A stretch of DNA of 64,000 nt, from positions 53,937 to 117,936 of the forward strand of contig CAMVRM010000003.1 in NCBI GenBank assembly GCA_947169885.1, in the 5' to 3' direction. Within the stretch, counting starts at the first letter, position 1; each line of letters opens with the position of its first letter. Positions 15,958 through 21,364 of the stretch are shown here, one piece after another. This stretch comes from an uncultured Ruminococcus sp. (GTDB lineage Bacteria; Bacillota; Clostridia; Oscillospirales; Ruminococcaceae). Below the pieces are notes generated by a model. The model was not told the DNA's origin, made no database searches, and saw only the letters and a list, made by a program, of their open reading frames with translations. Both the position numbers and the translations under genes were made by a program.

Positions 15958-18231
15958 ATGTATAAAACGGATTCGGTAATATGGTTCGATTCTCCTGCGG
16001 AGGACTGGAACAGCGCTTTGCCCGTAGGCAACGGACGTATAGGCGGTATGGTGTTCGGACAGCCGCTTTTTGAGAAGATAATGCTCAATGAGGATTCGAT
16101 CTATTCGGGCGGTCCGAGAAAGCGCAACAATCCTTCGGCAAAAAAGAACCTCGAAAAAGTCCGTCAGCTGCTCTTTGACGAGAAGATCGAAGAAGCCGAG
16201 AAAATCATTCTCGATGCGTTCTGCGGAACTCCCGTCAATCAGCGTCACTATATGCCGCTGGGCGAGCTGAATATCATACATGACGAGACTGAGTGCGATT
16301 TCGGAACACGTGCGCTCGACCTTGAAACGGCGCTCTGCACCACCGAATACAGCATCGGCGGCGTTGATTTCTGCCGTGAGGTGTTCTGCACCGAGCCTGA
16401 CAAGGTAATGGCTGTCAGGCTGACTGCTTCCGAAAAAGGAGCTGTCAACGTCCGCATAAAGATGGACGGGCGTGACGATTATTTCGATGACAACTCCCCT
16501 GTTTCCGACGATTCGATACTTTACTACGGCGGAGCAGGCGCTGAGGACGGCATTCAGTTTGCCGCTTATATAAAGGTACTCAACATCGGCGGCACGGTCA
16601 GTCAGTACGGCAGTTTTCTCAAATGTGAGGGCTGTGACGAACTTGTTATCATCATCGCTTCGCACACCAGTTGGCGCTATCAGGACTACAAACAGCAGGC
16701 AAAACTTGACGCAGAAGCGGCGGCACTGCTGGGTTACGAAACGCTCAAAAGCCGTCACCTTGCGGACTACCAAAGACTGTATCGCAGAACTTCCCTTGAC
16801 CTCGGCGGAAACGCTGACAGCCTGCCCACTGACAAGCGCCTGAAAGCGTTTGCGGACGGCGCTGAGGACAACCGTCTTGTGACGCTTTACTGGAATTTTG
16901 CAAAGTATCTGCTTATCGCTGCGAGCCGTGAGGGAACGCTCCCGACAAACTTGCAGGGCATTTGGAATAAAGATCTGTGGCCTGCGTGGGGCTGCCGCTT
17001 CACGATAAATATAAACACCGAGATGAACTACTGGGGCGTTGAGACTGCGAATCTTTCAAAGCTTGCGAACCCGCTGTTCGACCATATCGAACGCATGAGA
17101 CCAAACGGCAGAGTTACCGCCCGTGAGATGTATGGCTGCGGCGGCTTTGTTGCACACCACAACACCGACATATGGGGCGACACCGCTCCGCAGGATTTGT
17201 GGATGCCGGGTACTCAGTGGGTCATGGGTGCGGCGTGGCTGTGTCTGCACATCTGGGAACATTACCTGTTCACGCTGGACAAGGATTTCCTGCGTGAGAA
17301 ATACCCTACGCTCAAAGAGTGTGCGGCGTTCTTCGAGGATTATCTCATTGAAGACAAGCATGGACGGCTGGTCACTTGCCCGTCAGTTTCCCCCGAGAAC
17401 ACCTACATAACCGAGAGCGGTGCAAAGGGTTCTATCTGCATAGGCGCATCAATGGACAGTCAGATCATCTATGAACTGTTCACAGCGGTCATTGAATCGT
17501 CCAAAATTCTGGACTGCGACAAGGAACATTCCGAAAAACTCGCACAAATGCGTGACAGGCTTCCCAAGCCCGAGATCGGCAAATACGGTCAGATCATGGA
17601 ATGGGCAGTCGATTATGACGAAGCTGAACCGGGTCACAGGCACGTTTCACAGCTGTTCGCACTTTATCCCGGCGACATGATAAGCGTGAGAAAGACTCCC
17701 GAACTTGCCAAAGCTGCAAGAGCAACCCTTGAAAGACGTTTATCACACGGCGGTGGTCACACAGGCTGGTCCAGGGCATGGATGATAAACTTCTGGGCAA
17801 GGCTGTTCGACAGCAAGAAAGTCGGCGAAAACATCAGAGCGCTGCTCACGAATTCGACCAGCGTGAATCTCTTTGATATGCACCCTCCGTTCCAAATAGA
17901 CGGCAACTACGGCGGTGCCGCAGGCATTACCGAAGCGCTTGTTCAAAGTGCCAACGGCGAACTTATCCTGCTCCCTGCCTGCCCGAAAGAATGGAAATGC
18001 GGAAGCTTCAAGGGTCTGCGTGCAAGAGGTGCGCTGACAGTCGGCTGCAAGTGGGACGAAAAAACTGTCAAAGCAAAAGTCACTGCTGACAAGGACGTTT
18101 GCTTTACGCTTGTTAATAATTTCAGCGGTATGAAAGCTGTTCTTGACGGCAATGAGCTTTCGTGGGACGGCGATAGCTGCAAAGTTGATATCAGGGCAGG
18201 TCAGGTGCTTGACATCGCTGCTTTTATATAA
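15958..18231 (+). CDS. Glycoside hydrolase family 95 protein (alpha-L-fucosidase-like)
   Basis: WNSALPVGNGRIGGMVFGQPLFEKIMLNEDSIYSGG; NLQGIWNKDLWPAWGCRFTININTEMNYWGVE; HTGWSRAWMINFWARLFDS. Confidence 0.9.
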   Translation: MYKTDSVIWFDSPAEDWNSALPVGNGRIGGMVFGQPLFEKIMLNEDSIYSGGPRKRNNPSAKKNLEKVRQLLFDEKIEEAEKIILDAFCGTPVNQRHYMPLGELNIIHDETECDFGTRALDLETALCTTEYSIGGVDFCREVFCTEPDKVMAVRLTASEKGAVNVRIKMDGRDDYFDDNSPVSDDSILYYGGAGAEDGIQFAAYIKVLNIGGTVSQYGSFLKCEGCDELVIIIASHTSWRYQDYKQQAKLDAEAAALLGYETLKSRHLADYQRLYRRTSLDLGGNADSLPTDKRLKAFADGAEDNRLVTLYWNFAKYLLIAASREGTLPTNLQGIWNKDLWPAWGCRFTININTEMNYWGVETANLSKLANPLFDHIERMRPNGRVTAREMYGCGGFVAHHNTDIWGDTAPQDLWMPGTQWVMGAAWLCLHIWEHYLFTLDKDFLREKYPTLKECAAFFEDYLIEDKHGRLVTCPSVSPENTYITESGAKGSICIGASMDSQIIYELFTAVIESSKILDCDKEHSEKLAQMRDRLPKPEIGKYGQIMEWAVDYDEAEPGHRHVSQLFALYPGDMISVRKTPELAKAARATLERRLSHGGGHTGWSRAWMINFWARLFDSKKVGENIRALLTNSTSVNLFDMHPPFQIDGNYGGAAGITEALVQSANGELILLPACPKEWKCGSFKGLRARGALTVGCKWDEKTVKAKVTADKDVCFTLVNNFSGMKAVLDGNELSWDGDSCKVDIRAGQVLDIAAFI

Positions 18232-18252
18232 AAGGAAAGGATAAGAAAAAGT

Positions 18253-20220
18253 ATGAGATCAAGAAGGATAGCGGCTGCGGCTGCGGCAGCTGTCATGACG
18301 GTGACAGCGCTCGGCTCATGCGGCACATCTATGAACAAAAACAACAGTTCTGCTGACTCAAAGCAGTCGGAAAGCAGTTCTGTGACAGACTCGGCTGAAA
18401 GCACTTCCGACAGCGAGGGCAGCGGCGGCGACACAGCTGTTCCCGTTTACAATGAGACTAATTTTGATGCTGTGACCGTTCCTTACGTGGAATACTCAAA
18501 GACCTATCAGGCAGAATCGGGAACTCTTATCAGTGACACTGCGAGCGTTAAGAAAGAAAGAGCATCTTTCAAGGGCGAGGGCTATGTTTCGGGCGCTAAT
18601 CAGGAAAACTGGTCTATGAGTTTTGACCTGCCCGAATCGCAGTTTTACAACATATCCATTCAGACTGCTGCCGACAGTGCGGTAAACTGCCGCCTTTTCA
18701 TCAACGGCAGAGAGGTATGGATATTCCGCACCGCAGGCGATGGTAATTTCAGCGAAAAATTCCTCGAAAACATATGGCTCGAAAAGGGCATCAATGAGAT
18801 AACCGTTCAGTCGACAAATGACCTTGTTGACATCGACTACATAAAGATCGAGTCTAACGCCGACATAAGCACACTGAATCCCGATCTGTCGACTGCCGTT
18901 CTTTCAAATCCTCATGCGAATTACCGTGCCCAGGCGCTTTATCAGATACTTTGCTCCAACTACGGCAAGCAGGTGCTGACCGCCCAGCATGACACCGCAG
19001 GCGGCAGTTCCGAAACAGCGCTTGTACAGCAGCTCACCAACAAAGCACCTGCGATCAGAGTTTCCGACATGGGTCTTTACACCAAGCAGAACACCAAGGA
19101 CGTTACTCAGGCGATAAATTATTTCGAGGCAGGCGGACTTGTGGCTTATGACTGGTACTGGATAGACCCCTCGGGCGACAAGAACAGCGACAAGTTCGAG
19201 GTCAAGGATATAAGCTTCGACATAAAGAAAGCTATCCCCGAAACTGTCGAGAAACCTGCGCAGTATCCCGATGATGACGGCGACGGACTTCCCGACACAA
19301 ATGCCGAGCCTATCTCCCCTGCCGCTTCCGAGCCGAAATATAATGTTGACGAGATGTCCGAGTGGGACACCGACACTATCGAGTATTATCACAATATGGG
19401 CGAGATAACCGATGAGTGCTACTATATCCTGAATGACATCGACAAAGTTTCGGGCAAGCTGTCAAAGCTGCAAGAGAAAGGCGTACCCGTTCTGTGGAGA
19501 CCGCTGCCTGTTGCGAGCAACGGACTTTACTGGTGGGGAACTGACAAGGAAAGCTACAAATGGCTGTGGCAGCTGATGTACAAGCGCATGACCAACTACC
19601 ACGAACTGAACAACTTAGTCTGGGTGTGGAGCGCTCAGAACGCCGACTGGTATGTTGGCAATGAGTACTGCGATGTGCTGTCGGTGGACGTTTACACAGA
19701 GGGCAACCGCAGCGGTCATATAAACACTCTGCTGTTCCTCAACAACCTCTGCAAGACCAAGCCGCTTGCAATGAGTGAGTGCGGAAATCTGCCTGCGGTC
19801 GAGGCTATCTTGCAGGAGAAAGCATTCTGGGCGTATACGGCGCTGTGGACTGAACCTTATCTGTCCACTGAAATGGGCGTTTACGCTTCTGACGAGGATG
19901 AAAAGGTTAAAATGGCAGGACGCTTCACCGAATATTACAACAACAACTACACACTCACCCGTGAAGAACTCCCCGACCTTGTTGAAGTCGCAAAAAGCAT
20001 AAGAGCCGCTAAGAAGGCTGAAAAGAAAGCTAAGAAAGAAGCCGAAAAGCAAAATGCTGACAGTTCCGAAACTGACGAAAGTTCGGTACTTGACGAGAAC
20101 TACACAGACGGCGGATATTACGAGAAAGGCTACGATCAGGGCTACACTGATGACGGCGGCTACTCGGACGAATACACTGACGGCGGTTACTACGACGACG
20201 GAACAGGTTATAATTACTGA
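18253..20220 (+). CDS. Lipoprotein with CBM35-like domain and GH26 beta-mannanase domain, Tyr/Gly/Asp-rich C-terminal tail
   Basis: Signal peptide/lipobox ALGSCG; YQAESGTLISDTASVKKERASFKGEGYVSG (CBM-like); GKQVLTAQHDTAGG...VLWRPLPVASNGLYWWG...MSECGNLP (GH26-like). Confidence 0.85.
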   Translation: MRSRRIAAAAAAAVMTVTALGSCGTSMNKNNSSADSKQSESSSVTDSAESTSDSEGSGGDTAVPVYNETNFDAVTVPYVEYSKTYQAESGTLISDTASVKKERASFKGEGYVSGANQENWSMSFDLPESQFYNISIQTAADSAVNCRLFINGREVWIFRTAGDGNFSEKFLENIWLEKGINEITVQSTNDLVDIDYIKIESNADISTLNPDLSTAVLSNPHANYRAQALYQILCSNYGKQVLTAQHDTAGGSSETALVQQLTNKAPAIRVSDMGLYTKQNTKDVTQAINYFEAGGLVAYDWYWIDPSGDKNSDKFEVKDISFDIKKAIPETVEKPAQYPDDDGDGLPDTNAEPISPAASEPKYNVDEMSEWDTDTIEYYHNMGEITDECYYILNDIDKVSGKLSKLQEKGVPVLWRPLPVASNGLYWWGTDKESYKWLWQLMYKRMTNYHELNNLVWVWSAQNADWYVGNEYCDVLSVDVYTEGNRSGHINTLLFLNNLCKTKPLAMSECGNLPAVEAILQEKAFWAYTALWTEPYLSTEMGVYASDEDEKVKMAGRFTEYYNNNYTLTREELPDLVEVAKSIRAAKKAEKKAKKEAEKQNADSSETDESSVLDENYTDGGYYEKGYDQGYTDDGGYSDEYTDGGYYDDGTGYNY

Positions 20221-20229
20221 TAAAATGCC

Positions 20230-20272
20230 AAAACGCTGCAAGGAGAAAATGCTCTTTGCAGCGTTTATTTTT
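20230..20272 (+). terminator. Rho-independent terminator
   Basis: AACGCTGCAA...TTGCAGCGTT followed by T-run. Confidence 0.65.
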
Positions 20273-20421
20273 TACGTAAATAGCTAAAAAACTTAATTAT
20301 TTTCGTTGATAAATGATGTTAAATTATTGAATTTTTTGTGTATTATCGTAAACCAAAAAGATATAGATTGGTGAGTTGTTACAATTATTATGTTATAATA
20401 TTTTATATTTAGCACATATTA

Positions 20422-20450
20422 TTGACATAATCAGGAAGATAATGTATAAT
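20422..20450 (+). promoter_or_regulatory. sigmaA-type promoter for the pilin gene
   Basis: TTGACA-N17-TATAAT. Confidence 0.65.
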
Positions 20451-20480
20451 TAAAACAACGAAACAAAAACGAAAAATTTC

Positions 20481-20531
20481 GTGCAAGGGCTGCACGTGCA
20501 AAGGCTGCACCGAAAAGTGACAAGAGGTCAC
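20481..20531 (+). promoter_or_regulatory. Tandem-hairpin 5' leader (three 5-bp stem/5-nt loop hairpins)
   Basis: GTGCA-agggc-TGCAC (20481-20495), GTGCA-aaggc-TGCAC (20496-20510), GTGAC-aagag-GTCAC (20517-20531), between a good promoter and the RBS. Confidence 0.6.
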
Positions 20532-20572
20532 TCGATTTAAGGAAAATAGCAAAATAGAAAGAGGGATCAACC

Positions 20573-21364
20573 ATGAAAAGATATAATGCTTATTTGCGTA
20601 AGCTGCAAAAAGGCTTCACGCTTATAGAAATGGTCGTTGTTATCGCCATAATCGGCGTTCTTGCAGCGATAATCGTTCCGTCAGTTATGAACTACATCCG
20701 CAAATCTCAGCGCAGGGTCGACACGGCTAATGCCAAGCAGATCTGGACAGCTATACAGGGTCTGCTTGCCGATGATTATGTTGCGCACGATTATGCGCTC
20801 AACAAATCAGGCAAGAAAAAGGGCGACTGGACAACTGAAAGTTCGTTCTTTTGCAGTGAGGGTATCAGCGCTCCCTGCCGAATGGTAGATGTTTACTCAA
20901 ACGGCAACAACAAGCCCGAGCATTACAAGCTTTGCGTTGTTGCGATGTGCGTTGCAAAAAAAGGCGGCGGCGGAAAGGATAATTACGGTTTTTGGAACCC
21001 TGCTCAGGACGAGCATACGTATTTCGTTGAAAAACTCAACGGCTGCTCATGGGAAGATGCCCAGAAAAACGGCAAGAAAAACAAAGATCAGGGCTTTGTG
21101 GGAGACTCCACTGAGTTTCTTTGGCCTATGAAATATTTAACTCACAAGGACAACGTAAAGACAGACTGCTGGATAATCGGCTGGAGAGTTGAAGATCAGC
21201 GTGTCGAGATATGGTCAGGTAACACAACAGCAAGCGGCGGCGGCGGAAAGTTCCCTGTTTATAGGGTATGGCCCGATCCCTGCGATGAATATACCAACGA
21301 ATACTATGACAGCCCGTATAACAAGCCAAACGATGCAGACAGAAGCTATTACGGGGTCAAATAA
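20573..21364 (+). CDS. Type IV pilin-like / pseudopilin protein with prepilin N-terminus
   Basis: KGFTLIEMVVVIAIIGVLAAIIVPSVMNYIRKSQ. Confidence 0.9.
   Translation: MKRYNAYLRKLQKGFTLIEMVVVIAIIGVLAAIIVPSVMNYIRKSQRRVDTANAKQIWTAIQGLLADDYVAHDYALNKSGKKKGDWTTESSFFCSEGISAPCRMVDVYSNGNNKPEHYKLCVVAMCVAKKGGGGKDNYGFWNPAQDEHTYFVEKLNGCSWEDAQKNGKKNKDQGFVGDSTEFLWPMKYLTHKDNVKTDCWIIGWRVEDQRVEIWSGNTTASGGGGKFPVYRVWPDPCDEYTNEYYDSPYNKPNDADRSYYGVK

Follow-up and report, generated by a model that had tools for sequence, protein, structure and literature searches.

The predicted leader of a type IV pilin-like gene of an uncultured Ruminococcus sp. contains an array of three small RNA hairpins, and a single hairpin of the same kind recurs in the leaders of related pilin genes, where it probably acts as an RNA control site of a kind not described before. 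Our comparison of the leaders establishes, at the level of sequence, the structure of the hairpin, its position, the covariation of its stem, the constraint on its loop and its near-restriction to one pilin family among the leaders examined. Both the binding of a protein to the loop and the direction of the effect are what we infer from this pattern, and a protein-binding site would be the best single reading of the array. That the pilin leaders of Ruminococcus and of a second genus from its family share a cis-acting RNA hairpin with a loop read by a trans-acting RNA-binding protein is a view that we hold tentatively, as a good possibility that stops short of being probable.

Three hairpins in the leader of a pilin gene

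The array was found in a window of 64,000 nucleotides, the whole stretch of DNA that was analysed. Direct reading of the sequence bore out the preliminary description of three hairpins with 5-bp stems and 5-nt loops, the first two of them contiguous (Table 1). Hairpins 1 and 2 are identical in 14 of 15 nucleotides and are evidently a head-to-tail duplication; because one duplicates the other, the two are not independent. Hairpin 3 lies six nucleotides from hairpin 2, and its core (20517-20531) is extended to 6 bp if the A20516-T20532 pair is included. The three hairpins make up the centroid fold of the leader as well as both the minimum free energy and the centroid fold of positions 20478-20534 (-18.7 kcal/mol), and the overall folding energy of the leader is ordinary (z about -1 to -1.6). 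Exact 5/5/5 hairpins are frequent in the window (77 versus 69 in shuffles), and none of 20,000 shuffles of the leader contained three of them. It might be argued that the hairpins are chance palindromes or the functionless drift of a duplicated sequence, given that the triple is present in one genome only and that the global folding z-score is weak; the single case of three exact hairpins within 60 nt in the window, against a mean of 0.017 expected from dinucleotide shuffles, as well as the covariation and the positional recurrence in two genera make this very unlikely.

Table 1. Features of the pilin locus in the window.
Feature	Position	Strand	Basis and remarks
Terminator-like site past the upstream GH26 gene	20231..20266	+	Terminator scan
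Sigma-70-type promoter TTGACA-17-TATAAT	20422..20450	+	12/12 consensus bases; like layout before related leaders
Predicted 5' leader, about 116 nt	20457..20572	+	Start inferred from the -10 position
Hairpin 1, GTGCA-AGGGC-TGCAC	20481..20495	+	Sequence and folding
Hairpin 2, GTGCA-AAGGC-TGCAC	20496..20510	+	Sequence and folding; near-exact duplicate of hairpin 1, without spacer
Hairpin 3, (A)GTGAC-AAGAG-GTCAC(T)	20516..20532	+	Sequence and folding; other stem, same geometry
Shine-Dalgarno GAGGG	20561..20565	+	7 nt before the start codon; unpaired in centroid folds
Type IV pilin-like protein, 263 aa	20573..21364	+	PF07963, E 2.3e-9; C-terminal VE(V/I)W-G-S...R(L/V)WPxP family

The strong promoter that had been proposed upstream of the hairpins and the pilin-like gene after the leader, which encodes a type IV pilin methylation motif, were both confirmed. 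The leader would be transcribed from this promoter, with a predicted transcription start about 7 nt past the -10 element; hairpin 1 would then begin about 25 nt downstream of this start. The terminator-like site after the GH26 gene suggests that the pilin gene is probably its own transcription unit. Between the promoter and the pilin gene we found no plus-strand terminator, only a weak match on the minus strand, and an intrinsic terminator or attenuator was ruled out since no U-tract follows the leader stems. As the Shine-Dalgarno sequence is unpaired and lies about 29 nt downstream of hairpin 3, the hairpins do not occlude it.

The hairpin recurs as a single unit in related leaders

Of the 12 other genomes of the genus, two have a full-length ortholog of the window pilin, with 46-48% identity, and a contig search of the genomes with this protein matched only the ortholog of G009, an uncultured Ruminococcus. 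The wider family, recognised in the alignment by its kept C-terminus VEVW-GDS...RLWPxP, is represented here by 12 members examined in the genus Ruminococcus, and it has more distant members in other genera. The order GH95, GH26, pilin is common to the window (15958-21364) and to genome G004 (L090, 763-5977), and this kept order links the pilin with polysaccharide degradation genes.

The idea that the array itself recurs before Ruminococcus pilins was not borne out: among the 12 family leaders in the genus it occurs in the window only, and the relatives carry one hairpin. With a strict 5-bp rule, nine of the 12 family members have a 5-bp/5-nt hairpin at the same leader position; eight of them have a single one, located 26-40 nt past the -10 element and with the loops ACGGG, ATGGG, ACAGG, ACTGG and ATGGT, and the location of hairpin 1, 30 nt past the -10 element, matches theirs. 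Two further leaders have 4-bp versions (loop ACGGG in G011, CATC-AGAGT-GATG in G004). The leader of a paralog in the same genome as the window (G000:C5) lacks a strong hairpin, and this counts against the element, as does the stem of no more than 4 bp in G004. In the second genus the leaders of this pilin family retain the promoter layout, and at least three of 11 have a hairpin at about the same place (CAGCATC-GGGGC-GATGCTG, GATGTC-GGGGC-GGCATC and TGCGCC-GAAGT-GGTGCA); the stem in the G424 leader carries a tetraloop instead, and the absence of the hairpin from further leaders of this genus again counts against the element. It was not clearly seen in the leaders of the more distant pilins of the family.

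Hairpins with an A.GG. loop are present in seven of the 12 leaders, compared with 0.10 in shuffles (maximum 2), and among 168 distinct strong-promoter leaders they are confined to those of this pilin family and of one other gene. A test that is less biased than counts of hairpin pairs was a stem-blind scan of 13 genomes for the pattern TTGAC..TATAAT..CAYGGGG: this gave 12 matches, versus none in the reversed control. Six of the matches were family pilins, each of them flanked by complementary sequence, and one was the HPr gene of G009. The leader of this HPr-like gene (L131/L132, G009:C59) has an 8-bp hairpin, ATAACGTC-ATGGG-GACGTTAT. Since the ATGGG hairpin is found in this HPr leader and not in those of other members of the genus, which have different hairpins or none, HPr is not a regular member of the set. 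The 15-nt covariance model R1 (about 13 bits) proved uninformative as a search tool, matching nothing in the window although three of its training hairpins are located there.

Other pilin leaders have hairpins of their own. In another class of pilins (L022, L030, L077, L079, L081, L086) a hairpin that immediately precedes the start codon has the Shine-Dalgarno sequence in its loop. This hairpin, AAATAC-AAGAGGGG-GTATTT or AAATAC-GGAGGGG-GTATTT, is near-identical across paralogs and genomes and is a candidate translational switch, separate from the array. The leaders of pilins beginning with MRKTNKGFTL (L025, L027, L080) contain GGGTGA-ACAAN-TCACCC hairpins at the 5' end, about 13 nt past the -10 element, with pentaloops that start with A.

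Stem covariation and loop constraint

Stem changes that keep pairing had been suggested from the window, where they concern two of the five pairs only, and it is the related leaders that give this suggestion its backing. In 12 hairpins, 98.3% of the cells are paired, compared with 54.5% when the letters of the 3' arm are shuffled, all five pairs have changes on both sides, and the covariation score is 1.215 versus 0.265 in the shuffled and at most 0.230 in slid controls. A set of 16 hairpins, with pairs counted in register by a script because MAFFT misaligned two groups of the bare hairpins, keeps 78 of 80 pairs in 14 distinct stems, and shuffled arms reach at most 66; these pair counts favour structure, since the hairpins were chosen as hairpins. 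Thus, both recurrence and covariation, the test by which the element might have failed in homologous leaders, were found. A DNA-level explanation, with the inverted repeats bound as operators by a dimeric transcription factor, would fit the two near-identical 15-bp dyads just past the promoter and the exact GTGCA-N5-TGCAC dyads that pattern scans of the same genome found at nine further places. However, the arms differ among homologous leaders while their complementarity is kept, and the conserved part is the asymmetric loop. This turnover of the stem with pairing kept is a sign of a genuine element at the RNA level, not of an operator in the DNA; we regard the latter as most improbable.

The kept loop pattern, a motif that was set post hoc after the leaders had been viewed and from few, related sequences of mostly draft genomes, is purine-N-(G)-G-N, mostly upon a C-G closing pair (13 of the 16 hairpins). 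Position 1 is A in 13 and G in three hairpins, position 3 is mostly G, position 4 is G in 15 of 16, and position 5 is G (nine), C (four) or T (three) but never A. The loops had been described as Shine-Dalgarno-like, and this likeness is not the kept feature, as the relatives have ACGGG, ATGGG, ATGGT, GGGGC and GAAGT. The presence of GG or GGG, sometimes GGGG through the closing G, could suggest that the loops pair with a C-rich RNA, either a small RNA or the anti-Shine-Dalgarno of 16S rRNA, to make a first contact or to serve as a ribosome standby site. This is rather improbable, as the second base varies, loops like ATGGT, AGAGT and GAAGT occur, and there is no fixed complementary partner sequence.

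Comparison with known leader elements

The leader has no match in Rfam at the gathering score, nor at E values up to 5, and a known riboswitch or Rfam leader such as c-di-GMP-II was rejected as no covariance model matched. CsrA/RsmE sites consist of an A(N)GGA loop atop a stem, and the pentaloops AGGGA and AAGGA bind RsmE (PMC4005645). The pilin hairpins resemble them in presenting the motif on a short stem-loop with a C-G closing pair and a loop opening A-N-G-G, and in having, like CsrA/RsmE targets, multiple sites per leader. Unlike those sites, their loops never end in A (0 of 16), and they leave the Shine-Dalgarno sequence uncovered. None of 13 genomes, some of them incomplete drafts, encodes a CsrA above the PF02599 cut-off, and a CsrA site was rejected on both grounds, the missing final A and the missing protein. 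The hairpin of the NusG paralog LoaP in the dfn/mln leader has a UNCG tetraloop and is followed by a terminator in the leader (PMC12691694). It is likewise a small protein-read hairpin in a Firmicutes 5' leader, with the reader of the pilin hairpins being our own proposal, but the latter have pentaloops; with UNCG in none of the counted loops and no terminator in the leader, a LoaP antitermination hairpin was rejected as well.

Stem-loops that protect mRNAs are established in cellulolytic clostridia, and the SRPS of these bacteria resemble the pilin hairpins in being stem-loops close to the ends of transcripts from plant-fibre degradation genes (PMC4423207, PMC10311766). The SRPS act on processed polycistrons, whereas the pilin leader is probably monocistronic and its loop is constrained.

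Discussion

The main rival to a loop that is read by a protein is a plain 5' hairpin that would stabilise an abundant pilin mRNA by slowing its decay from the 5' end, without any specific reader. We consider this a serious though less than even possibility, and the two are compatible with each other. A stabilising role would agree with the established protection of clostridial mRNAs (PMC4423207, PMC10311766), with the location of hairpin 1 close to the 5' end and with the varied 5' hairpins in the HPr leaders of the genus. Moreover, the first 60 nt of other pilin leaders of the family are more structured (mean z -1.74, 41 leaders) than those of 117 other strong-promoter leaders (mean z -0.54; p 5e-7), and such general 5'-proximal structure is explicable without a binding protein. 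On the other hand, the hairpin-bearing family itself is only weakly more structured than the background (p 0.07), and stabilisation alone would not retain purine-N-G-G-N loops while nearly all stems changed. The loop constraint thus speaks against pure independence of the loop.

Because the CsrA site and the LoaP hairpin both mismatch, we propose a loop-reading RNA-binding factor. Each unit would present, on a short stem of free sequence, a five-base loop of the type purine-N-(G)-G-N, with C-G as the usual closing pair. A trans-acting RNA-binding protein other than CsrA might read this loop, be the mRNA nascent or mature, and in this way set the stability or the translation of the pilin mRNA. 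In the window, the unit duplicated head to tail and the third one 6 nt away could provide avidity or cooperative binding. It is tempting to go further and to envisage a putative new RNA-binding protein of the CsrA-lacking Ruminococcaceae that reads purine-N-G-G-N pentaloops, with multivalent arrays in some species, and that controls fibre-attachment pili as an equivalent of Csr/Rsm that arose by convergence; this is a speculation that we consider unlikely, though not far-fetched.

We know of no description of post-transcriptional regulation for such Ruminococcus pilins. In Ruminococcus, type IV pilins are associated with adhesion to cellulose, and one pilin of R. flavefaciens is up about 19-fold on Avicel (PMC3672088). 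In a lineage in which CsrA was not found (13 genomes), the leader hairpin may serve as a bait for an RNA-binding regulator, and with its defined loop and freely varying stem it provides a testable cis element.
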